Source: an uncultured Methanomicrobiales archaeon (GTDB taxonomy: Archaea > Halobacteriota > Methanomicrobia > Methanomicrobiales > Methanospirillaceae). Taken from it: a DNA stretch of 40,354 nt. The stretch lies in contig CAIKOD010000181.1 of the NCBI GenBank assembly GCA_903828975.1, forward strand, positions 1-40,354, in the 5' to 3' direction. A program made the translations under genes and the position numbers. Below are positions 10,356 through 23,550 of the stretch, in pieces. The notes under the pieces were generated by a model. It saw only the letters and a list, made by a program, of their open reading frames with translations. It made no database searches and was not told where the DNA came from. Numbering within the stretch: the first letter of the stretch is position 1; the number at the start of each line of letters is the position of its first letter.

Positions 10356-10371
10356 AATAACAATTGTGAAC
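10356..10371 (+). promoter_or_regulatory. Operator-like palindrome before the desulfurase-cysK operon
   Basis: AATAACAATTGTGAAC matches the near-perfect palindrome ATTCACAATTGTGAAT found before the HTH regulator and tRNA-Cys; its right half and centre are identical over ACAATTGTGAA. It lies 70 bp before the ATG and just downstream of an A/T-rich stretch (10329-10347) that probably holds the TATA box, so a bound protein would block initiation. Confidence 0.6.
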
Positions 10372-10440: not shown

Positions 10441-11607
10441 ATGTATGATCTTCAAAAATTACGCCATGAATTTCCGATACTCTCAAAGTGCGTCTATCTC
10501 GACAGCGCCTCGACAAGCCAGACCCCCAAATGTTCTGTCGATGCCATGTGTGAATATTTCTTCGAATACGCAGCGAATCACGGAAGAGGCGCCCATCACC
10601 TCGCCCGGAAGACCACGGAGAAGTACGAAGAGACCAGGACACGGTTAGGAAATTTTCTAAAGGTCTCCCCGGATCACATTATTTTCACAAAAAATACGAC
10701 GGACGCAGTAAATACGGTTGCAAACGGGCTTACATGGAAACGAGGTGACGAAATAATTACCACCTGGCTGGAACACCATTCGAATCTTCTTCCGTGGATG
10801 AACCTTAAGAAAAAGGGTGTCCGTGTTACTTTCGTCCAGCATGAGAATGGATATCTCAATCCCCAGAACATCCAGGAGGCTATCTGCTCTAAGACGAGAT
10901 TGGTTGCTGTCACCCATATGCCCAATATTCTCGGGACAGTCCAGCCGGTAGGGGCTATCGGCCGCATCGCCCACGATGCCGGGGTTCCGGTCATAGTAGA
11001 TGGAGCACAGTCTGTGGGGCATTTCCCGGTTGATGTTACCTACATCGATTACCTCGCAATTCCCGGGCATAAAGGACTTCTCGGACCTCAGGGGACGGGG
11101 GCACTCTATATGAAAGATCCAGAGTCCCTGAATTGTTCGATCTTCGGGGGTGGGATGGTGGTATCGGTATCCCATAAGACTGTAAAATTACTACCTCCTC
11201 CTGCAAAATTTGAACCCGGGACACCCAATATCCCCGGGGTTATCGGTCTCGGGCCAGCAATCGACCTCGTCAGTTCACTCGGTGTCAGGAATATCCATGC
11301 ACATGAAAAGCAGCTCGGCTCCCGGATGTACGAAGGACTCGTGAAGATACCAGGTGTAAGTGTCTACAGCCCGAACGGGACTGGTGTCGTTTCCTTCAAT
11401 GTCGCAGGGGAGAATCCCAATGAATTTTCCCGTAAGCTTGACGATTACAAGAAGATCTGCGTGAGAAGTGGCATGCACTGCGCAGAACCACTTGCAAGCA
11501 GTTATCATTGCGAAGGCACAATCCGGGCCTCCGTTGGTTGTTATACCACGAACGATGAGGTCGATGCCCTGATTGAGAGTGTCCGGTATCTGACCGGAAA
11601 CATGTAG
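10441..11607 (+). CDS. Cysteine desulfurase-like class V aminotransferase (SufS/Csd type)
   Basis: A 388-residue PLP enzyme. Residues 17-24 (CVYLDSAS) open the fold, EHHSN (about 111-115) is the cofactor-contact block, DGAQSVGH (187-194) holds the PLP Asp, Lys211 in PGHKGLLGPQGTG is the Schiff-base lysine, and Cys347 in RSGMHCAEP is the persulfide-forming Cys position of SufS-type enzymes. It would take sulfur from cysteine for Fe-S or thio-cofactor synthesis. The start has a GGTGA site six bases upstream. Only seven bases separate it from cysteine synthase, so the two are one operon, apparently under the palindrome at 10356. A role as a cysteine or selenocysteine lyase cannot be excluded. 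Confidence 0.85.
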   Translation: MYDLQKLRHEFPILSKCVYLDSASTSQTPKCSVDAMCEYFFEYAANHGRGAHHLARKTTEKYEETRTRLGNFLKVSPDHIIFTKNTTDAVNTVANGLTWKRGDEIITTWLEHHSNLLPWMNLKKKGVRVTFVQHENGYLNPQNIQEAICSKTRLVAVTHMPNILGTVQPVGAIGRIAHDAGVPVIVDGAQSVGHFPVDVTYIDYLAIPGHKGLLGPQGTGALYMKDPESLNCSIFGGGMVVSVSHKTVKLLPPPAKFEPGTPNIPGVIGLGPAIDLVSSLGVRNIHAHEKQLGSRMYEGLVKIPGVSVYSPNGTGVVSFNVAGENPNEFSRKLDDYKKICVRSGMHCAEPLASSYHCEGTIRASVGCYTTNDEVDALIESVRYLTGNM

Positions 11608-11614
11608 GTCTCCC

Positions 11615-12544
11615 GTGATCCCTGTGAATCCAACGCGAACGGTTCTCGATGCCATTGGGAATACCCCGCTCATCGAGATCAGGAACCTCAATCCCTATCC
11701 GGCGATTCGTATCTTTGCAAAGTTTGAAGGCTGCAACCCCGGGGGATCAATCAAGGATCGTATAGCCCTTTACATGATCCTGGCCGCGGAACGATCCGGG
11801 GAACTCACGCACGATAAGATCATTATGGAACCGACCTCCGGGAATACCGGTATAGCGCTCGCCATGATTGGAGCTGCGAAAGGCTACCAGGTAATGCTGG
11901 TGATGCCGGGTTGTGTAAGTGTCGAACGAAGACGAATTATCGAGGCGTTCGGTGCTGAAGTAGTGATGACTCCGGCAGAAGAGGGAACTGATGGAGCGAT
12001 TCGGCGTGCATGGAGATTTGTAGAGGAGAACCCGGATAAATATTATATGCCTGATCAGTTCTCAAATCCTGCGAATATCCAGGCCCATTATGAGACCACG
12101 GGTCCTGAAATATATCATGAACTGGATGGGAAAATCGATTGTTTTGTTGCAGGCATGGGGACCACCGGGACTCTGATGGGGGTAGGGAAGTACTTAAAGG
12201 AAATGAACCAGGGGATACGCATCATCGGAGTAGAACCGGAACTGGGACATGCGATCCAAGGATTGAAAAACATGGAGGAAGCAATAGTTCCTGATATTTA
12301 CAAGGCAAATTTCCTCGATCAAAAGATACGGATCGGGGACGAGGAAGCGTATGTAATGGCACGGAAGATTGCGACACGCGAAGGGATTTTCACGGGGATG
12401 TCGAGCGGTGCGGCACTGGCAGGCGTGCTTAAAGTCGCAGAGTCGCTCGGGTCAGGAACCATTGTCACCATATTTCCGGACAGGGGGGACCGCTATCTCA
12501 GTACTACGCTTTTCCGTTCCATTTGCAGCGATTGTAACCCTTAG
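11615..12544 (+). CDS. cysK: Cysteine synthase family PLP enzyme
   Basis: A 309-residue fold-type II PLP enzyme. Lys47 in NPGGSIKDR is the Schiff-base lysine, PTSGNTGIA (about 73-81) binds substrate/cofactor, and GMGTTGTLMG holds the phosphate-binding loop. It would join sulfide to an activated serine (O-acetyl- or O-phosphoserine) to make cysteine; the NP-GGSIKDR form resembles CysM/CBS-type enzymes, so O-phosphoserine is a realistic donor in a methanogen. The C-terminus ends in a CSDC motif. The start is GTG 11615, seven bases after the desulfurase stop. The organism thus has a free-cysteine route as well as the tRNA-dependent one. Confidence 0.88.
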   Translation: MIPVNPTRTVLDAIGNTPLIEIRNLNPYPAIRIFAKFEGCNPGGSIKDRIALYMILAAERSGELTHDKIIMEPTSGNTGIALAMIGAAKGYQVMLVMPGCVSVERRRIIEAFGAEVVMTPAEEGTDGAIRRAWRFVEENPDKYYMPDQFSNPANIQAHYETTGPEIYHELDGKIDCFVAGMGTTGTLMGVGKYLKEMNQGIRIIGVEPELGHAIQGLKNMEEAIVPDIYKANFLDQKIRIGDEEAYVMARKIATREGIFTGMSSGAALAGVLKVAESLGSGTIVTIFPDRGDRYLSTTLFRSICSDCNP

Positions 12545-12738: not shown

Positions 12739-13047
12739 TTAATAGTATGCTTGTATACCCGGGACCCAGTTCGCAAGCATCGTGGTGAACAATTCATGGG
12801 ACTCTTCCAGATGCTCTTCATGGTACCTGACATAAAGGGTCTGATCGCCTACCATACCCTTGATGCTGAAATAGTCCTGCTTGGAGAATGAGAAGAAGGG
12901 CTGTTTCAGGTTATCCAGGATCTTTACCGTGCCAAACTCCCCGAAATATGTAATGAGATCCCTAGTGACCTCTGCGTCTACTGAGTATTCTTTCAGCACG
13001 GTCCCGTCAACACACCGTTTGAATTTATTGGTTTTGAGGATCTGCAT
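12739..13047 (-). CDS. Small conserved-looking protein after a cysteine desulfurase, function unknown
   Basis: A 102-residue protein I do not recognise. It is soluble, with no signal peptide or transmembrane segment, mixed alpha/beta in appearance, and has one Cys (residue 12, KRCVDG). It contains an aromatic-rich middle (QPFFSFSKQDYFSIKGM) and a charged helix (RYHEEHLEESHELF). It begins 18 bases after the stop of the class V aminotransferase on the same strand, so co-transcription is likely. The placement suggests a sulfur-transfer partner or specificity factor of that enzyme; this is inference from position only. Confidence 0.7.
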   Translation of the reverse strand: MQILKTNKFKRCVDGTVLKEYSVDAEVTRDLITYFGEFGTVKILDNLKQPFFSFSKQDYFSIKGMVGDQTLYVRYHEEHLEESHELFTTMLANWVPGIQAYY

Positions 13048-13065
13048 GATTTCACCAATTAATTA

Positions 13066-14205
13066 TCAGATGGTAGCAGCAATTTCTTCAACTGCAGCTA
13101 CAGTCGCCTCACATTCTTCGATCGTATTCATGCATGAAAGGCTTATCCGGACTCCCCCCGAGGCATTGATCCGCTCGTGAATCAGCGGGGAACAATGGAG
13201 ACCGGTCCGGACCACGATCCGGTATGCTTTCCAGAGGATAAACCCGATATCTTCACTTTCCATGCCTTTAACCGTGAACGTAAGCACCGGTATATCAGGA
13301 GACGAATTGTATAACCTGACCCCGTCGATCTCCCCGAGCGCCTTAACAAGGTACGAGGTCATAGTGCGGGAGTGCGAAAGGATTGTGTCAACCCCTCTCC
13401 TTTCTACAAACCCTGTCCCGGCATCGAGAGCGGCTATCCCCGGATAGTTTGGTGTCCCTGGCTCGAATTTCAGGGGCAACTCTTCTGGCTGGTACTGACT
13501 AGCCGAGTCGACCCCGGTACCCCCCTGCCGGATTGGATCAACCTGTTCCGGGCTCCTGATGTAGAAACCCCCCGTTCCCGGCAGGCCGAACAATGATTTA
13601 TGGCCGGTGAATACGAACGCGTCAACCGGGAGTTTCCCGGGCTTTGCCGGGTATTGTCCGGCGGTCTGGGCACCGTCCACCAGGAAAAATACTCCTGATG
13701 ATCTCACCAGGTTTCCAATGGGTTCAATGTCCTGCACAGAACCAAGCACATTCGAACCATGCCCTATTACCACCAGTGCGGTGTCATCCGTCATTATTTC
13801 CCCGATCTCTTCCGGTTTCACGTGAGGGTCGGTTGTCCGGATAATAGAGAGCGAACACTTCCCCTCCCGCTCAAGCGTCCGGAGCGGCCGTAGTACAGAG
13901 TTATGTTCAAGATCCGTGGTGATCGCATGGAATGGCTTGCCGTAACGTTTCGCAAAGCCATGGATCAGCAGGTTCAACGAGTCTGTCGCGCTCGATGTGA
14001 AGATAATATGTTCCGGGCTGGAGACCCCGAAGAAATCTGCAACAGTCTGCCGGGTTGTTCCGATGTAATCCGGTGCATCCTTGACCGTCGTGCGGCCATG
14101 TTCATAGAAAGGAGAGGAGAACACATCAGCTGCAGCTTTCAGGACCTCGGGGGGTTTGGGCCAGGTTGTCGCGGCGTTGTTCAGATAGATTAATGGTTCA
14201 GTCAC
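13066..14205 (-). CDS. Cysteine desulfurase family protein (second class V aminotransferase)
   Basis: A 379-residue PLP enzyme of the cysteine desulfurase family, of the YLNNAATTWPKPPEV subtype (residues 7-21). LEHNS (99-103), DGAQTAGQ (177-184), Lys203 in FTGHKSLFGLPGTGG and Cys338 in RTGLHCSPL are the expected cofactor, Schiff-base and persulfide positions. It is only distantly similar to the enzyme at 10441, and has a longer KAYRIVVRTG loop. GTG 14205 is chosen because the family starts here and a GGTG site precedes it; the frame is open to 14250. It is followed by the unknown 102-residue protein. Likely a dedicated sulfur donor; the acceptor is unknown. Confidence 0.85.
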   Translation of the reverse strand: MTEPLIYLNNAATTWPKPPEVLKAAADVFSSPFYEHGRTTVKDAPDYIGTTRQTVADFFGVSSPEHIIFTSSATDSLNLLIHGFAKRYGKPFHAITTDLEHNSVLRPLRTLEREGKCSLSIIRTTDPHVKPEEIGEIMTDDTALVVIGHGSNVLGSVQDIEPIGNLVRSSGVFFLVDGAQTAGQYPAKPGKLPVDAFVFTGHKSLFGLPGTGGFYIRSPEQVDPIRQGGTGVDSASQYQPEELPLKFEPGTPNYPGIAALDAGTGFVERRGVDTILSHSRTMTSYLVKALGEIDGVRLYNSSPDIPVLTFTVKGMESEDIGFILWKAYRIVVRTGLHCSPLIHERINASGGVRISLSCMNTIEECEATVAAVEEIAATI

Positions 14206-14365
14206 GGGAGCACCGGAATACAATTCCTGATTTTTTGAGTAACCCAACAATTTGCTAATTGCCGGAATCTCTTAGGATCCCGGCATTTTAACAATAAAAT
14301 TTGCATTCTCTTCCTGAGTATGGTGGATTGGGTTGAAGAGGTCATGTCCGGGTATTCATGTGTAT

Positions 14366-15163
14366 TCATAATACCTCGTCCATACTTCCACTCCGGTAGC
14401 CGGCAAGGTCGAGCGTCACATAGTCTATTCCGATTCCCCTGAAGGACTGAATTATCTCTTCACGAATGATCAGGAGTTTTTCAAAATCTGCAGCAGGGAC
14501 CTCGATCCTGGCAACCCCGCCATGCAGCCGGACTCTTATCTGTATAAAACCCTTCCCGACAAGAAACGCTTCAGCCTCCTCAATCATCATGAGTTTTTTT
14601 GCAGTAATCTTATCCCCATATGGGAACCGGGATGCAAGACACGCGGCTGATGGTTTATTCCAGACCCGAAGTCCGTAATCATGTGCAACCTGCCTGATAT
14701 CTTCCTTGGTGATACCTGTCATGATGAAGGGATGGATTATACCCTCTTCGGTAGCAGCGGTAAGACCTGGCCGGTATTCTCCCATATCCGAAACATTGAT
14801 CCCGTCAGCGATACATGCAAGGCCATAGTTCATTGCAGCTTCCTTCAGGTACCTGGCCGAGATTTTTTTACAGAGGTAGCAGCGGTCAGTCGGATTTTTG
14901 CGGAGGTTTTCGTGTTCCATGTGCGGGACTTCAACAATATCGAGCAGTAATCCAAGGTCTTCTGCAATCTGTTTCGCCTCTGCCAGCGCTAATCTCGGCA
15001 CCAGCGGGCTGTCAAGAAGAATGGCACGGCTCCGGTCCCCCAGCACATCGCGGGCAAGTACTGCGAGGAGGGTGCTGTCAACACCACCTGAAAAAGAGAC
15101 AAGCATCGACCCGCATCCGGCGATGATATTTTCAAGGGCTTTTTTCTTATGTGCAATGGGCAT
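14366..15163 (-). CDS. larE: LarE-family ATP-dependent sulfurtransferase (PP-loop)
   Basis: A 265-residue PP-loop protein with SFSGGVDST (residues 23-31), the LarE-type NPTDRCYLCKK block (Cys95, Cys98) and SAACLASRFPYG (Cys175). Lactobacillus LarE gives up its own single Cys sulfur to make the nickel-pincer nucleotide, whereas three-Cys members carry a [4Fe-4S] cluster at CxxC plus a third Cys and can act catalytically. The pattern here is the three-Cys one. It lies 61 bp after the Cys-rich HTH gene and may be co-transcribed with it. LarC is encoded at 36320-37549; I see no LarA or LarB, so the thio-product in this organism is open. Confidence 0.85.
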   Translation of the reverse strand: MPIAHKKKALENIIAGCGSMLVSFSGGVDSTLLAVLARDVLGDRSRAILLDSPLVPRLALAEAKQIAEDLGLLLDIVEVPHMEHENLRKNPTDRCYLCKKISARYLKEAAMNYGLACIADGINVSDMGEYRPGLTAATEEGIIHPFIMTGITKEDIRQVAHDYGLRVWNKPSAACLASRFPYGDKITAKKLMMIEEAEAFLVGKGFIQIRVRLHGGVARIEVPAADFEKLLIIREEIIQSFRGIGIDYVTLDLAGYRSGSMDEVL

Positions 15164-15224: not shown

Positions 15225-15566
15225 TCAGGTGCTGCACGGTCCAAGTCCGGTTTCCGCGCCACCACACTGGTTCTCCTCGCCTTCACGAAGTTGCTGGCAG
15301 ATTGTACAGATACGCTTGACGAGGTTCACATCTTTTTTATCCCTCAAATCCACTGCAAGCTGCTCAATAGACCGCTTGACATAGTTCTCAAACTCAATCC
15401 GGTACCCCCGTTTTCCGGAAAGGTACTGTGAGACAGCAGAGGGTGCGATCTCGAGCATCCGTGAGGCTTCAACCTGGGAGACCCCGCACTTCACAAGTTC
15501 AACAGCTATCGCAGCCCTTATTGCAGGAAGGATATCCCAAACTACTTTCTGACATGGAGCTTCCAT
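15225..15566 (-). CDS. Small HTH transcriptional regulator with Cys-rich C-terminus
   Basis: A 113-residue protein with an XRE/lambda-type helix-turn-helix: GVSQVEASRMLEIAPSAVSQYLSG at residues 28-51. A C-terminal Cys group follows (Cys87, Cys90, Cys101, Cys111: CxxC-x10-C-x9-C), plus Cys5 and Cys27 around the HTH. Four spaced Cys suggest a metal or Fe-S site able to sense sulfide, cysteine or redox state. ATG 15566 is chosen over the adjacent GTG. It is divergent from tRNA-Cys/SepCysS, and the perfect palindrome at 15613-15630 lies 47 bp before its start, fitting autoregulation. I propose it binds the ACAATTGT palindromes; this is inference. Confidence 0.78.
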   Translation of the reverse strand: MEAPCQKVVWDILPAIRAAIAVELVKCGVSQVEASRMLEIAPSAVSQYLSGKRGYRIEFENYVKRSIEQLAVDLRDKKDVNLVKRICTICQQLREGEENQCGGAETGLGPCST

Positions 15567-15612
15567 CACATCACAACCCTTATGTTATTCCAGTCGTGAC
15601 ATAATAACAACG

Positions 15613-15630
15613 CATTCACAATTGTGAATG
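15613..15630. promoter_or_regulatory. Perfect 18-bp palindrome before the HTH regulator gene
   Basis: CATTCACAATTGTGAATG is a perfect inverted repeat centred at 15621.5, in the 260-bp divergent gap between the regulator and tRNA-Cys. It has the same core as the palindromes at 15773, 15801 and 10356. Its position 47-64 bp upstream of the regulator start suits autoregulation. Confidence 0.7.
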
Positions 15631-15765: not shown

Positions 15766-15773
15766 TATAAATA
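15766..15773 (+). promoter_or_regulatory. TATA box of the tRNA-Cys/SepCysS unit
   Basis: TATAAATA preceded by a purine-rich AAAAGATAACC BRE-like stretch. Transcription would start about 25 bases on, near 15795, giving a roughly 30-nt leader before the tRNA. The palindrome at 15773 begins at its last base. Confidence 0.65.
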
Positions 15774-15788
15774 TTCACAATTGTTATC
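15773..15788. promoter_or_regulatory. Operator-like palindrome, tRNA-Cys promoter, site 1
   Basis: ATTCACAATTGTTATC keeps one perfect half of the palindrome and the AACAATTGT core; its reverse complement, GATAACAATTGTGAAT, closely matches the site at 10356. It abuts the TATA box, so a bound regulator would compete with TBP/TFB or RNA polymerase. Confidence 0.65.
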
Positions 15789-15800
15789 TATTATGATAAG

Positions 15801-15816
15801 ATTCACAATTGTGAAT
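15801..15816. promoter_or_regulatory. Operator-like palindrome, tRNA-Cys promoter, site 2
   Basis: ATTCACAATTGTGAAT, a perfect 16-bp palindrome identical to the core of 15613-15630. Its centre is 28 bp from site 1, just downstream of the expected start point and nine bases before the tRNA. The roughly three-turn spacing would allow cooperative binding. Confidence 0.7.
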
Positions 15817-15825
15817 TTCAATCGT

Positions 15826-15897
15826 GCCAGAGTGGCGGAGTGGCTACGCGGCTGACTGCAGATCAGCTACAACCCGGTTCGAATCCGGGCTCTGGCT
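15826..15897 (+). tRNA. tRNA-Cys (anticodon GCA)
   Basis: A complete 72-nt cloverleaf: acceptor GCCAGAG/CTCTGGC, three-pair D stem GCG/CGC with a GG-containing loop, anticodon stem GCTGA/TCAGC around CTGCAGA (anticodon GCA), variable loop TACAA, T arm CCCGG-TTCGAAT-CCGGG, and discriminator U73, a Cys identity base. CCA is not encoded. It is the substrate for phosphoseryl-tRNA synthetase and then SepCysS, whose gene starts 12 nt downstream, so the two are probably one transcript. There is no intron. Confidence 0.95.
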
Positions 15898-15909
15898 TGT
15901 GGATTGACC

Positions 15910-17274
15910 ATGAGTATCAGGATCCAGAAAACATTTGAAGCACTCTTCGCACTCGAAGAAGTCCGGGGTCTATTTCGCGAGTCCCTTCCTACAGGTTTCG
16001 ATGCACAGGAAGAGTCCGCGTTCAGGCAGCGGATTGCCGATATTAAGGCAATCCTTGCTGATCTCGAGGCGGGTACCGGAACACCGAAGGTGACAAAGAT
16101 CGCCGGTTCCATCGACCTCCGCACGCGGGAAGAAGAGGCAATCAACATCCAGCCGATCCAGGCAGCAGGGCGATTGACAACGGAGGCGAGGAAGGCCCTC
16201 ATCTCCTATGGTGACGGGTACTCAACGTGTGACGCCTGCCGGAAGCCATTCCGGCTGGACAAGATCACCAAGCCAGGGATCGCGGAGTTCCATGCAGAAC
16301 TAGCAAAGTTCGTCAACATGGACCATGCCCGGGTCGTACCCGGTGCTCGCCGGGGGTTCCAGGCAGTGGCCGGAACGCTAGTTAACAAGGGCGATAGTGT
16401 GATAGTTACCGCCCTGGCCCACTATACCGAGTTCCTCGCTGTTGAGAACGCTGGTGGGAATGTCAGGGAAGTACCACTGGATGATAAGAATATTGTAACC
16501 GGTGAAGCAACAGCACTGAAAATCGAAGAGATCAGACAGGAGACAGGAAAACTCCCCGTGCTTGTCATGATCGACCATTTCGATTACCAGTTCGCAAACG
16601 AGCACGAAGTAAAAGAGATCGGGAAAGTTGCTCACCAGTATGATATCCCGTTCCTCTACAACGGTGCCTACACGGTAGGTGTCCTCCCTGTGGATGGAAA
16701 GAAGATCGGAGCTGATTTTGTAGTCGGCTCAGGCCATAAGAGTATGGCATCGGTCGCACCGTCGGGTGTACTTGCGATGACCGATGAATGGGTGCCGAAG
16801 GCACTCCGCACAACCGCGATGGTTGGTGACCTGACAAAACGCAGATTTGGGATAAAAGAGGTCGAAATGCTTGGTTGCACGCTGATGGGAGGGACGCTGC
16901 TCTCGATGATGGCATCATTCCCGACAGTAAAAGCCCGGACCCTAATGTGGGAAGACGAAGTAAAGAGATCCAACTACTTTATCGACCGGCTCCTGAAGAT
17001 AACCGGGACCAAGGTGCTCTCCGAGTACCCCCGGAAGCATACATTAACCAAGGTTGATACAACCGGAAGCTTTGATAAGATTGCCCAGACTCACAAACGT
17101 CGAGGGTTCTACCTCAGCGATGAGTTGTCCACCCGTGGCATTGTCGGGGAGTTTGCCGGCGCAACAAAGACCTGGAAGCTGAACACCTATGGTCTCTCGG
17201 ACAAGAAGATCCACTATCTTGCCGATGCCTTTGAAGAAGTGGCGGAGAAACACGGCCTTGTCGTTGAAAAATAA
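15910..17274 (+). CDS. pscS: O-phospho-L-seryl-tRNA:Cys-tRNA synthase (SepCysS)
   Basis: A 454-residue PLP enzyme that converts Sep-tRNA-Cys to Cys-tRNA-Cys. GSIDLRTREEEAINIQPIQ (residues 66-84), GDGYSTCDAC (Cys107, Cys110), PGARRGF, the AHYTE block, Lys277 in GSGHKS and Cys323 in LGCTLMGG match the family. The CxxC pair and the distant Cys are the three sulfur-handling residues known to be essential in SepCysS. It has about 60 extra N-terminal residues compared with shorter family members, in a helical, charged segment. ATG 15910 follows the tRNA-Cys 3' end by 12 nt with only a weak ribosome binding site, so the processed mRNA would be nearly leaderless. SepRS is not in this window. Confidence 0.93.
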   Translation: MSIRIQKTFEALFALEEVRGLFRESLPTGFDAQEESAFRQRIADIKAILADLEAGTGTPKVTKIAGSIDLRTREEEAINIQPIQAAGRLTTEARKALISYGDGYSTCDACRKPFRLDKITKPGIAEFHAELAKFVNMDHARVVPGARRGFQAVAGTLVNKGDSVIVTALAHYTEFLAVENAGGNVREVPLDDKNIVTGEATALKIEEIRQETGKLPVLVMIDHFDYQFANEHEVKEIGKVAHQYDIPFLYNGAYTVGVLPVDGKKIGADFVVGSGHKSMASVAPSGVLAMTDEWVPKALRTTAMVGDLTKRRFGIKEVEMLGCTLMGGTLLSMMASFPTVKARTLMWEDEVKRSNYFIDRLLKITGTKVLSEYPRKHTLTKVDTTGSFDKIAQTHKRRGFYLSDELSTRGIVGEFAGATKTWKLNTYGLSDKKIHYLADAFEEVAEKHGLVVEK

Positions 17275-17388: not shown

Positions 17389-18705
<1,317 letters not shown>

Positions 18706-18791: not shown

Positions 18792-20282
18792 ATGATCAAA
18801 GGATCAGTAGGACTTGTAACTACGCAATATTATCTCCATTCCTCCCCGCTTGAACTTGAGAGCGGGGAAACACTCCCCTTATTTACACTCGCGTATGAGA
18901 CATACGGGACCCTGAACAAGGAAGCGAGCAATGCTATTCTCTTATGCCATGCCTTGTCCGGTGATGCCCATGCAGCAGGGTTTCATGCTGGTGACGAAAA
19001 ACCGGGATGGTGGGATTCGGTAATTGGTCCCGGGAAGGCATTTGATACCGACAAGTACTTCGTCATCTGTTCGAATGTGATCGGCGGATGTAAAGGTTCG
19101 ACGGGGCCATCGTCTGAAAACCCGGAAACAGGTGAACCGTACGGGATTGCCTTTCCCGTCATAACGATTCGTGACATGGTTAATGCCCAGAAACTCCTGG
19201 TTGAACAACTCGGGATCAACCTGCTCTATGCCGTGGCAGGTGGATCTATGGGCGGTATGCAGGTACTCCAGTGGACGGTAAGCTGGCCTAAGCACGCAAG
19301 TAAGGCGATTGTAATCGCAGCGACCGCCTATTCGACCCCCCAGCAGATCGCATTCAATGAAGTGGGAAGGATCGCCATCACATCTGACCCCGCCTGGGAG
19401 AACGGGGACTACTACCAGCAGAAATCGTACGATTCAAATGGGCCGTTCCAGGGACTTGCACTGGCACGAATGGTCGGGCATATCACCTACCTTTCGAATG
19501 AGTCTATGCACGAGAAGTTTGGCAGGGCGTTGCAGGACAAAGACCGGATAGGTTATAATTTCTCAACTGATTTTGCCGTGGAGAGCTATCTTCATCACCA
19601 GGGTGACACGTTCACGCATCGGTTCGATGCCAATTCATACCTCTACATTACCAAGGCAATTGATTACTTCGACCTGACAAAGGACGGCTCGCTCAGAAAA
19701 GGACTTGCGGGAGTAAACGCAGCCTTCCTGGTCATCTCGGTCTCTTCCGACTGGCTGTATCCCCCGTACCAGTCACAGGAGATCGTATCCGCACTGGCGG
19801 CGAATGACCGTGAAGTCCGTTATAGCGAGATCCAATCCAACTTTGGCCATGACGCGTTCCTGCTGGAATCAGGCCAGATAAATTACCTGATCTCACAGTT
19901 CCTGTCAAAGACCATTGTTGGCGATGTCATGATCCGGGATGTCCCGACCATTGAGGAAGGGGCAACAACTGCGGTGACGGCACGGCGGTTAATCAACCTC
20001 GAGGTAAATCACCTGCCAGTACTCTCATGCAGTGGTCAGCTGGTGGGAATCGTCACATCATGGGATATCGCAAAAGCAGTCGCAAAAAATTTCCTATGGC
20101 TTGATGAAATCATGTCAAAAAATGTCATCACAACGGTCCCGGATGAACCGATCGAATCTGCTGCGAAGAAAATGGAGGAACACTCAATTTCTGCCTTACC
20201 GGTTATCGATGAGGATCAGCATCTTATCGGCCTTATTACCAGTGATGCAATCAGCACGCTTATCGGGAGGAGCAATTCATGA
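18792..20282 (+). CDS. metX: Homoserine O-acetyltransferase fused to two CBS domains
   Basis: A 496-residue protein. Residues 1-370 are a MetX alpha/beta hydrolase: Ser152 in AGGSMGG is the nucleophile, Asp320 (SSDWLYPP) and His353 (GHDAFL) complete the triad, and [21 protein letters not shown] is characteristic. Residues about 378-494 are a pair of CBS motifs ([12 protein letters not shown]..., [14 protein letters not shown]...), which usually bind adenosyl ligands such as ATP, AMP or SAM. The fusion suggests allosteric control of the first methionine-specific step. The stop overlaps the next ATG by four bases (ATGA). Plain MetX enzymes lack the CBS tail. Confidence 0.93.
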
Positions 20283-20863
20283 GAATCCTCTCGATTCATG
20301 CGTCTTCGATGTGGTACAATGCAACCCGGAAGACAAAGATGGCAGAGCCCGTCACCGTCCGCGAAGACAGGATGGAGGAATGCGTAGTCCTCTTCTGCTG
20401 TGTTGAGAAACTCGATGAGAAAAATCCTGGTCAGGTAGTCAGGGGTGCATCTTCGGGTGTCATGGAACGGCTCGGTAAATTAAAAGTGAACAGGGTGATG
20501 ATCTATCCCTATGCCCACCTGGCAAGCTCACTCGGGCAACCTGGTGTCGCACTTGGGATACTCAAGGGGCTTGAGAGCTCTCTCAGGGAGTCATCGGTCG
20601 AGGTCAAAAGGGCTCCTTTCGGGTGGTACAAGGAATTCGAGATCAAGGGGAAAGGGCATCCCCTTGCGGACCTCTCGATGACGATCTGCCCATATGAAGG
20701 GTCCGAACGAGACTTTTCATGCCCGTACTGCAACCACCCGATAATGACTGCAGATCTCTCTTGTGCAAATACCGGTGCAGACCGGAAACAACTGGTTGCC
20801 AGAACCAACGGTTGCAGTCCCGGACCTGACTGTGAATGTGGATTGGTGAAACATCATGACTGA
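20279..20863 (+). CDS. Freestanding archaeal ThrRS editing domain protein with Cys-rich tail
   Basis: A 194-residue protein whose first ~135 residues match the archaeal threonyl-tRNA synthetase N-terminal editing domain: [24 protein letters not shown] (His80), [22 protein letters not shown] (Tyr117, Lys118, Asp131). This fold hydrolyses Ser-tRNA-Thr; the His and Tyr-Lys positions are kept, while the usual Glu of LAEL is Asp. There is no synthetase catalytic core. The C-terminal ~60 residues hold CPYC (148/151), Cys162, Cys179 and CEC (185/187), resembling a zinc or cluster site. It is translationally coupled to metX and overlaps DUF1890 by eight bases. It may be a trans-editing factor; the misacylated tRNA it acts on is unknown. 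Confidence 0.78.
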
Positions 20864-21326
20864 AGACGTAAACAAACAAGAACATGCTACCCTCTTTCTT
20901 GGGTGCCCGGAGGTCCCGGTGCAAATGGGAATCTCGCTGTATCTCTCCCACATGCTCAGGAAGAGTGGCCGGCAGGTGACAATTGCGGCGAACCCGTCCG
21001 TGATCAAACTCGCACGGGTTGCAGACCCGGAGCGGCATTACATGGACAAGATGATCGACCTTGACCGCTGTATCGGGGATATTGCCGAAAAAAAGCGGAG
21101 CACGGATATTGCGATCCTATTTGCCCATAACGACGCCGGGATTACCTATGCAGCGACAGTCCGGTATCTCCACCCGGGCCGGCTGGTTCTGGTCCTCTTC
21201 GGGCGTCATGCTGAAGAGCTCGTTTCATCAGTTGATTTCCCCTGCGAAATGATCGTGGAAAAGGCAGTCCATGACCCGTCCGGCCTGAGAAAGAAAATCG
21301 ATGAGGTATTTCAATGGCCTGCGTAG
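20856..21326 (+). CDS. DUF1890 family protein
   Basis: A 156-residue protein of the methanogen-centred DUF1890 family. FLGCPEVPVQMGISLYLSHMLRKSGRQVTIAANPSVIKLAR (about 14-54) is the conserved N-terminal block, with one Cys in LGCPE. HNDAGITYAATVRYLHPGRLVLVLFGRHAEEL (about 89-120) suggests a Rossmann-like alpha/beta fold. It overlaps the editing-domain gene upstream and DUF1894 downstream, so the three are tightly coupled. No biochemical function is known to me; the operon places it in sulfur or methionine metabolism or tRNA thiolation. Confidence 0.8.
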   Translation: MTEDVNKQEHATLFLGCPEVPVQMGISLYLSHMLRKSGRQVTIAANPSVIKLARVADPERHYMDKMIDLDRCIGDIAEKKRSTDIAILFAHNDAGITYAATVRYLHPGRLVLVLFGRHAEELVSSVDFPCEMIVEKAVHDPSGLRKKIDEVFQWPA

Positions 21327-21610
21327 AGGACCTCAACAAGGAGATTGTCCTGTCGGGTGCCAGTTTCAAGGAGGCACGGGAATACGTGGAGGCCCATTGT
21401 AAAGAGATCTATTATGTCGAGCCCGGTTTCCGGCTATTTGAAAAGCATATCATCGGGATCCCGCCTATCGCTATAGGCCTTGACGGTGACATGGTCCTCT
21501 TTCCGTTTACCAAGCCCTGTTATGGAACATTCCTGATCAGGGCAGAACACGCCGAAGAAGCATCAAGGCTCCGGTCACTCGGTCTGAAGACAACAAAGGA
21601 AAAGAAGTGA
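21314..21610 (+). CDS. DUF1894 family protein
   Basis: A 98-residue protein of the DUF1894 family, restricted largely to methanogens. The core is EAHCKEIYYVEPGFRLFEKHIIGIPPIAIGLDGD followed by FPFTKPCYGTFLIR; the two Cys (about residues 29 and 69) sit in conserved-looking positions. It overlaps DUF1890 by 13 bases and the thiI start by four (GTGA). Function unknown. The gene pair DUF1890-DUF1894 directly before thiI suggests that they help ThiI or deliver sulfur to it; this is inference. Confidence 0.8.
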   Translation: MACVEDLNKEIVLSGASFKEAREYVEAHCKEIYYVEPGFRLFEKHIIGIPPIAIGLDGDMVLFPFTKPCYGTFLIRAEHAEEASRLRSLGLKTTKEKK

Positions 21611-22752
21611 CCGAAGGGGAAAGCGCCGGCCGGGTCTTCCCCTACTGGAAACACGCGGTTGTCTGGCTCGTCCGGTATGGCGAGATCGCCCTGAAATCTC
21701 CGGGTGTCCGGGACATGTGGGAACGGCAACTCATGACCAACATCCGTGAAGGACAGCCAGATGGATGCAAGGTCAGCCGGGACCGGGGCCGAATATGGGT
21801 AACCGGGGCTGTTGACCGATTAAGGCTTGGAAAGGTCTTTGGGATTGTTTCGGTCTCCCCTTGCCGGACCTGCAGCCTTGAAGATATAACTGCTGAACTT
21901 ATCAGGTACATGGGAGACCTGCTTCCAGGGACCGGGAGTTTTGCACTCCGGGTCAGGAGGACCGGAAATCATACCCTGAGTTCGCAGGAGTATGCCCGGG
22001 AACTTGGTGAGGCTGTCAGGGATGCATTTCCGGAAATTTCGGTAGATCTTACGAATCCTGGAATATCCATTCATGTCGAGATCCGGGATGACCGCTGTTA
22101 CCTGTATCACGAAATATTCCCCGGTCCCGGAGGCCTGCCTCTCGGTGTAGAAGGGACCCTCGTAGCGCTTCTTTCTGGCGGTATTGATTCTGCCGTTGCC
22201 ATCTGGATGATGATGAAGCGTGGATGCCGGATCGTACCGGTCTTTATTGACATGCCACCGTTTCTTGGTGACTCAGCCCTGAAAAGAGTCCAGGCAGTCC
22301 TCGGAATCCTTTCAGAGTACCAGCCCGGGATTACCCTGCATACAATCGAGGATACCTATGTTGCAAGGGCACGGGAATCGCTCAGGGCAAGCGGTGATGA
22401 AAAATACGTATGCCTCCTCTGTAAACGCCGGATGTACCGGATCGCAGAAGACCTTGCCTCGGAAATACACGCCGGCGGGATCGTCACCGGGGAGTCTATG
22501 GGCCAGGTGGCCTCGCAGACGCTTGACAACCTCAAAGTACTTGACAGGGTCTCCGTCTTGCCCATTTACAGGCCCTTAATCGGCTTCGATAAGACTGAAA
22601 TTATCACGATCGCCAGGAAAATTGGTACATTTGAGCATTCAATCATGCCGGTGAGCAGTTGCTGCTGTGCAGTGCCGAACCGGCCAGCTACAAGTGCGGA
22701 TCCGCTTGTTATCGAGGCACTTGAAGAGAGACTGGCCAATAATACCGGGTAA
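21607..22752 (+). CDS. thiI: ThiI tRNA 4-thiouridine synthetase, archaeal type
   Basis: A 381-residue enzyme for 4-thiouridine in tRNA: an N-terminal ferredoxin-like and THUMP region (about 15-170, with RVRRTGNHTLSSQEYARELG) and a PP-loop ATPase domain starting at SGGIDSAV (190-197). There is no rhodanese domain. Instead it has CLLC (Cys269/Cys272) and Cys352-354 (SSCCCAVP), matching the CxxC plus distant Cys that methanogen ThiI uses, probably to hold an Fe-S cluster that takes sulfide directly. The start is GTG 21607, overlapping the DUF1894 stop. It ends the six-gene metY-to-thiI run. Confidence 0.93.
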   Translation: MTEGESAGRVFPYWKHAVVWLVRYGEIALKSPGVRDMWERQLMTNIREGQPDGCKVSRDRGRIWVTGAVDRLRLGKVFGIVSVSPCRTCSLEDITAELIRYMGDLLPGTGSFALRVRRTGNHTLSSQEYARELGEAVRDAFPEISVDLTNPGISIHVEIRDDRCYLYHEIFPGPGGLPLGVEGTLVALLSGGIDSAVAIWMMMKRGCRIVPVFIDMPPFLGDSALKRVQAVLGILSEYQPGITLHTIEDTYVARARESLRASGDEKYVCLLCKRRMYRIAEDLASEIHAGGIVTGESMGQVASQTLDNLKVLDRVSVLPIYRPLIGFDKTEIITIARKIGTFEHSIMPVSSCCCAVPNRPATSADPLVIEALEERLANNTG

Positions 22753-22906: not shown

Positions 22907-23308
22907 TTATCCCCTGTATATATAGGGATAACTGAGAAGGGCGAACCTGCCGGTGTATGCGGCAGTGGCTGGCCGATAGTAGCCTGAATTACTCTTTTTT
23001 ACAGTCTGAAAAGACTGCTGGCCTGACTGGCATGTTGCACCATTCGTGCATGCTGTTGTAGCGCAGTAGGCACTTGTAGCACATCCACCGTTTAAACATC
23101 CCTGTCCGTTGTCCGGGCAGAGCGAACTGTCAGCGCATGACTGCTGACCTGTACATCCGGCAGTACCTGCTGGGCAGGCGATTGAACATGACTGGGCTGT
23201 TGAACAGGACTGCGCCTGGGCACTGTTCCCGCAGCTTCCTCCGCATGCCATTACACTGGCAGGGAGCAGGAGGAGCATCGCCAGAGCGATGATGAGTAGT
23301 TTCTTCAT
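22907..23308 (-). CDS. Small exported Cys-rich protein, function unknown
   Basis: A 133-residue protein with a clear signal peptide, MKKLLIIALAMLLLLPASVMAC; the VMAC at the cleavage point resembles a lipobox, so it may be a lipoprotein. The mature part has 13 Cys in about 75 residues, spaced irregularly (SC, AC, GC and TC pairs) among Ser, Ala, Gly and Thr, with no canonical heme or ferredoxin motif. The last 35 residues are Tyr-rich and without Cys. ATG 23308 is chosen because the frame upstream (to 23356) would put 16 charged residues before the signal peptide. It is divergent from a Cys-rich membrane regulator. Possible metal binding or redox buffering outside the cell. Confidence 0.72.
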   Translation of the reverse strand: MKKLLIIALAMLLLLPASVMACGGSCGNSAQAQSCSTAQSCSIACPAGTAGCTGQQSCADSSLCPDNGQGCLNGGCATSAYCATTACTNGATCQSGQQSFQTVKKSNSGYYRPATAAYTGRFALLSYPYIYRG

Positions 23309-23550
23309 ATTGTTTCTGACTCCTTGATCTTCCGGGTCTTCCCGGTAAAAATTCATTTCTCACCATGTAATAAACCATTTCTCGCAGATCACTCTTATTC
23401 AACAGACCCGTGGATTACTGGAAGTTTTAATGGCATAAGAAGACCTTGTGAAAACACTGGAAACCCAAAAATGAGTAAATTTCGCCACGAGAATAAGCTG
23501 GAACATTCAGAAAGGCTAAATAGAAGAATTTCAGACATGTAAGATTAGCA

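Follow-up and report, generated by a model that had tools for sequence, protein, structure and literature searches.

IscR is the bacterial Rrf2-family Fe-S repressor of the isc genes; it is autoregulated and carries a cluster held by cysteines. Bacterial regulators of the CymR and CysB types place the genes for cysteine and methionine synthesis under one factor, and we know of no tRNA-Cys gene under their control. In archaea, SurR and other redox regulators are HTH proteins with a CxxC motif. A further group of uncharacterised archaeal XRE-like proteins, which we take to be COG2522, has to our knowledge no known function, and COG2522 was not mentioned in the open literature that we searched. 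Methanogens depend heavily on Fe-S proteins, and little is known about how their cysteine and Fe-S supply is controlled (PMC8351635, PMC8516115). Gene clusters of tRNA-Cys and clade VII SepCysS were described by Mukai et al. 2017 without discussion of their regulation (PMC5424206). In the open literature that we searched, which includes few subscription journals, we found no published account of the HTH protein studied here or of its control of SepCysS, tRNA-Cys or isc genes.

We analysed a stretch of 40,354 nucleotides (the window) and computed an operator, its pairing with a regulator, the targets, the promoter geometry and the conservation of the regulator's cysteines. Like IscR, the putative regulator is a small HTH protein that adjoins iscS-iscU and is predicted to control both these genes and itself, and its conserved cysteines could hold a cluster. 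It differs from IscR in having an XRE-like HTH with no Rrf2 match, a different operator, and a predicted regulon that is centred on tRNA-dependent cysteine synthesis and includes a tRNA gene. As with CymR and CysB, a single factor is predicted to act on cysteine and methionine genes, but the protein families are unrelated. The protein also differs from SurR in its HTH family, operator and four-cysteine pattern. With its COG2522-type paralogues it has in common the HTH, an N-terminal cysteine and a CxxC(xC) motif. By its gene content the locus is a cluster of the clade VII SepCysS kind, combining sulfur genes and tRNA-Thr-ED with tRNA-Cys and SepCysS; the regulator, the operator and the split between constitutive and switched tRNA-Cys copies are all absent from PMC5424206. 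The features of the locus are listed below; the 14-bp palindrome that we take as the operator reads TTCACAATTGTGAA in the regulator's own promoter.

10357-10370, no strand: predicted operator before SufS-CysK, 12/14 positions
10441-11607, plus: SufS-type cysteine desulfurase
11615-12544, plus: cysteine synthase, CysK/CysM family (TIGR01136)
13066-14250, minus: class-V aminotransferase/cysteine desulfurase family, same direction as LarE and the regulator
14366-15163, minus: LarE sulfurtransferase (TIGR00268, 298 bits against a cut-off of 150)
15225-15566, minus: HTH regulator gene, 113 aa from ATG, HTH at about residues 25-54
15580-15607, no strand: putative degenerate second element in the regulator leader, TTATGTTATTCCAGTCGTGACATAATAA, judged from the sequence and from relatives
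15615-15628, no strand: predicted operator at the regulator promoter, exact copy (14/14), 48 bp upstream of the regulator ATG, kept in orthologues
15766-15773, plus: TATA box for the tRNA-Cys, TATAAATA, centred 56 nt upstream of it
15774-15787, no strand: predicted upstream tRNA-Cys operator, 12/14, directly 3' of the TATA box
15802-15815, no strand: predicted main tRNA-Cys operator, 14/14, centred 17 nt upstream of the gene
15826-15897, plus: tRNA-Cys (GCA), predicted operator-controlled copy
15910-17274, plus: SepCysS (NF006810 and TIGR02539 over cut-off), 12 nt after the tRNA-Cys
17407-18705, plus: MetY-type O-acetylhomoserine sulfhydrylase (TIGR01326)
18792-20282, plus: MetX homoserine acetyltransferase with a C-terminal CBS pair
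20279-20863, plus: tRNA-Thr_ED editing-domain protein (PF08915)
20856-21326, plus: DUF1890
21314-21610, plus: DUF1894
21607-22752, plus: ThiI-type sulfurtransferase

SepCysS is probably co-transcribed with the tRNA-Cys, and LarE, which the earlier note on this DNA had correctly placed 61 bp downstream of the regulator, is likely part of the regulator's operon. Two proteins of the window without a Pfam match are also recorded here: a 102-aa protein between cysK and the cysteine desulfurase gene (12739-13047, minus), 81% identical in the relative L075, and a Cys-rich protein with a signal-like N-terminus (22907-23356, minus).

The four palindrome sites of the earlier note, three of them beside the regulator gene and one in its own promoter, were recovered at 10357, 15615, 15774 and 15802. 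Two of the three regulator-adjacent sites belong to the promoter of the tRNA-Cys, a gene absent from that note. Only three exact copies of the palindrome occur in the whole 2.58-Mb genome, against about 0.008 expected by chance, and all are at sulfur genes or the regulator. Two of them are in the window; the third separates iscS-iscU-thiF-moaE from a sufS-fdhD pair, and nadA is close by. The two 12/14 copies in the window, taken alone, are not above chance, and we count them as real because the same places hold sites in relatives. L075 has an exact copy at the position equivalent to the SufS-CysK operator, and the 28-bp spacing of the two tRNA-Cys operators recurs in relatives. The second element of the regulator leader reads GTCACAATTGTGATAA in many Methanoregula. 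A search with Rfam near the palindrome sites returned no RNA element except the tRNA.

The open reading frame and cysteine positions given earlier for the 113-residue HTH protein (Cys87, Cys90, Cys101 and Cys111) hold; a GTG at 15569 is an alternative start that would give 114 aa. The protein has six cysteines in all, at positions 5, 27, 87, 90, 101 and 111. In a Pfam profile search it matched HTH_3 at E = 4e-4 and 20.8 bits, under the cut-off of 23, while 57 of 60 homologues matched HTH_3 at E < 0.01 (best 2.5e-7). Rrf2 was matched neither by the regulator in Pfam or NCBIfam nor among the families listed for the 60 homologues. A known structural relative was sought and rejected, as none was significant by sequence or fold: the best phmmer hit in the PDB had E = 0.48, and Foldseek found nothing at E <= 0.001, its best hit having E = 0.56. 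A PDB profile search reached E = 0.0024 with a lambda-repressor-like chain, in the HTH only. In the AlphaFold model (pLDDT 82), Cys5 stands where helix 1 begins, Cys87 and Cys90 lie in the last helix, and the tail at 98-113 is unstructured. No ligand domain is evident in the 113 residues.

The link between this protein and the palindrome was examined in 159 genomes of the class, each at least 85% complete, counting sites with at most one mismatch. Two or more sites were present in 54 of the 83 genomes with a close orthologue and in 3 of the 76 without one (Fisher p = 3e-17, a value that ignores kinship and overstates the case, as related genomes are not independent). Recurrence of the association inside several families is stronger evidence than the p value. 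A control with the reversed pattern gave counts near zero. In 92 of 127 distinct orthologue genes the palindrome (at least 12/14) stands no more than 200 nt from the start codon, mostly at 41-48 nt, so that the operator is conserved in the regulator's own promoter in these 92, to which 13-mer variants can be added. Methanospirillum-type regulator promoters carry the 13-mer TTCAC-N3-GTGAA near the place of the missing 14-mer, and 13-mers of this sort also occur in some promoters of the Methanocorpusculum type. We take G024 to be M. hungatei and genus g24 to be Methanocorpusculum. The spacer of the 13-mer, seen in the regulator promoters of L305-L314 and L055-L072, is one base shorter, and the recognition helix is unchanged in Methanospirillum.

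Some genomes (for example G023, G019 and G082) keep the protein without a recognisable palindrome, and a few have sites with no orthologue found; one of these, G172, has five sites and a fragmented assembly. The co-occurrence, the conserved placement and the parallel change of the operator together indicate that the 113-aa protein is very probably the cognate factor of the palindrome. Another factor might bind it instead, such as a paralogue of about 38% identity that has a similar HTH (AAVSQYLSRKRG) and is present in nearly all these genomes, leaving the 113-aa protein a mere neighbour. We consider this very unlikely: sites are very rare where the paralogue occurs alone (two or more in just 3 of 76 genomes), and the palindrome stands in front of the gene of the 113-aa protein in genus after genus.

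Orthologues with about 55-66% identity were found in Methanosarcina, Methanolobus, Methanococcoides, Methanomethylovorans and Methanocalculus, and in most cases the palindrome is at the corresponding genes. The predicted regulon in Methanoregula, Methanosarcina, Methanolobus and Methanocalculus includes tRNA-Cys with SepCysS-MetY-MetX, IscS-IscU-ThiF, CysK-CysE, SufS, NadA, PdxS, ThiI and the regulator. Along the DNA of Methanosarcina sp. Ant1, MetX-MetY-SepCysS-tRNA-Cys is followed by nadA-thiF-iscU-iscS, then the regulator and cysK-cysE, with sites between them. In both Methanoregula-type and Methanosarcina genomes the regulator and iscS-iscU diverge, and the palindrome occupies the gap between them. 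LarE is the usual neighbour of the regulator in Methanoregula and its relatives; Methanosarcina and Methanolobus have CysK or SufS next to it instead.

In the complete genome G004, presumably M. boonei, six of the seven palindromes detected genome-wide are at cysteine/sulfur targets or the regulator (cysK-cysE; sufS-thiF; thiI; tRNA-Cys-SepCysS; another tRNA-Cys accompanied by a radical SAM gene; regulator/iscS-iscU), and the seventh has no evident target gene. Across all loci compared, 191 of 237 distinct strong sites have the regulator, a tRNA-Cys or a listed sulfur gene no more than 260 bp away, a fraction inflated by the choice of many loci via the regulator; the whole-genome scans are the unbiased evidence. 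SepRS, which opens the tRNA-dependent route to cysteine, was rejected as a target, as it had no palindrome in 12 genomes. The earlier proposal of an HTH regulator acting through the palindrome on sulfur genes is thus supported in its pairing (co-occurrence, placement and operator variant) and in its cysteine, sulfur and Fe-S targets, and corrected in its set of cysteines.

A radical SAM protein lies repeatedly next to an operator or an operator-bearing tRNA-Cys (L215:5694-6677, L204:4556-5590) and is a possible regulon member. In the Methanolobus-type loci L151, L156, L163 and L172, a tRNA-Arg(CCG) near 7.3 or 12.6-13.1 kb adjoins the region with the operator and may share it.

The palindrome (at least 12/14) occurs within 150 nt upstream of 43 of 66 distinct tRNA-Cys genes. 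No other tRNA gene that we saw has one upstream, except four tRNA-Arg genes beside the tRNA-Cys site in the Methanolobus-type loci. The second tRNA-Cys of the source genome, on contig C140, lies between the 23S and 5S rRNA genes and lacks the palindrome. The rRNA-operon tRNA-Cys of G004 (L253) likewise lacks it, and further relatives also have such copies without an operator. Since the rRNA-operon copy has no operator while the other copy has one, we infer a constitutive tRNA-Cys in the rRNA operon and a switched, operator-bearing one. Its presence before 43 of 66 tRNA-Cys genes could also mean that the palindrome is a promoter or RNA element of tRNA-Cys and not an operator; this is highly improbable, because housekeeping tRNA-Cys genes lack it and it also stands, in both orientations, ahead of many protein genes.

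Most tRNA-Cys promoters of Methanomicrobiales have the TATA box centred 51-58 nt before the tRNA and the main site 13-19 nt before it, and a second palindrome often follows the TATA box directly. In regulator promoters the best TATA-like stretch is mostly 22-30 nt before the site, with weak TATA matches in some. No palindrome was consistently upstream of the TATA box in the tRNA-Cys and regulator promoters examined. Archaeal transcription starts about 25 nt after the TATA box. Because the sites mostly lie between the TATA box and the gene start, a bound protein would cover the start region in the manner of a repressor, and we have good confidence that the regulator acts as one. The Methanosarcina tRNA-Cys sites are further upstream, at -27 to -54, where an overlap with the transcription start is less clear. 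Their distance from the tRNA and the frequency of paired sites would suit an activator or a dual-acting factor; the position of the site in most tRNA-Cys and regulator promoters, never consistently upstream of TATA, makes this unlikely.

The earlier note had proposed Cys87, Cys90, Cys101 and Cys111 as the site of an Fe-S cluster, zinc or persulfide. Conservation upholds the first three and replaces Cys111 with Cys5. Of the 127 orthologues, 126 have Cys5 (the single change is to Trp) and 124 have the CxxC of Cys87 and Cys90, where the exceptions are two assembly gaps and one apparent frameshift. A third C-terminal cysteine follows the CxxC by 9-11 positions in 112 of 127. Cys111 or any later cysteine is absent in 54 of 127, and the set with Cys111 was rejected on that ground; Cys27 was rejected as a ligand because it is not conserved. 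Orthologues lacking the cysteines and keeping the operator, which the note had named as evidence against its idea, were not found among the 127 beyond the two gaps, the frameshift at the second CxxC cysteine and the Cys5-to-Trp change.

Judged by sequence conservation, the candidate ligand site is Cys5-Cys87-Cys90-Cys101. Paralogues from several families with no link to the operator share the N-terminal cysteine and the CxxC, mostly as CxxCxC, which suggests that the four-cysteine pattern is a family-wide zinc or Fe-S site. Because these paralogues outside the regulon have the same pattern, it is no proof of cysteine sensing by itself. The site probably binds a cofactor, and whether this would be an Fe-S cluster rather than zinc is an even call. 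The four cysteines may also be the likeliest place of sensing. A structural zinc site in a regulator that responds to a small molecule (cysteine, O-phosphoserine, O-acetylserine or homocysteine) or to a partner protein is a possible but somewhat doubtful alternative. The shared cysteines of the operator-unlinked paralogues are what a structural site would predict; against it, no ligand domain is apparent in this small protein of 113 aa, and Fe-S genes (iscS-iscU, nadA) are among the targets.

We think it likely that the protein is an autoregulated master regulator of a cysteine and sulfur-mobilisation regulon in Methanomicrobiales and Methanosarcinales, acting as follows. Most likely the regulator, presumably dimeric, occupies ATTCACAATTGTGAAT a short distance 3' of the TATA box. 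Once bound, it would block RNA polymerase at its own gene, tRNA-Cys-SepCysS-MetY-MetX, iscS-iscU, cysK-cysE and further sulfur genes. Cys5, Cys87, Cys90 and Cys101 probably hold an Fe-S cluster or zinc. A shortage of cysteine or Fe-S would lift the block, so that the enzymes and the dedicated tRNA-Cys copy would rise. The switched copy would be the scaffold on which cysteine is made, and the rRNA-operon copy would sustain basic translation. More tentatively, there may be two tRNA-Cys pools, one constitutive for translation and one switched with SepCysS as scaffold by a repressor responding to Fe-S or cysteine, with that repressor a new, non-Rrf2 counterpart of IscR and CymR with a Cys5-Cys87-Cys90-Cys101 cluster site.

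With a named regulator, operator and target list, the prediction is directly testable in laboratory strains of Methanosarcina. Either cysteine or sulfide can supply the sulfur of M. acetivorans, and its growth on cysteine is somewhat reduced when iscS2U2 is missing (PMC10500019), which makes it a suitable test organism. Control of a tRNA gene by a dedicated metabolic repressor would agree with the two functions of tRNA-Cys, adaptor and biosynthetic scaffold, and leads one to ask whether its copies are specialised.

A third kind of tRNA-Cys (GCCGGYGTGGCAGAACGG...), operator-free and sometimes near cysK/metB-like genes, was seen at L214:12703-12780 and L218:3857-3929 and also in L046, L113, L120, L191, L207 and L220. 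It is perhaps the G73-type tRNA-Cys that has been reported for Methanoregula and Methanospirillum (PMC8762117).
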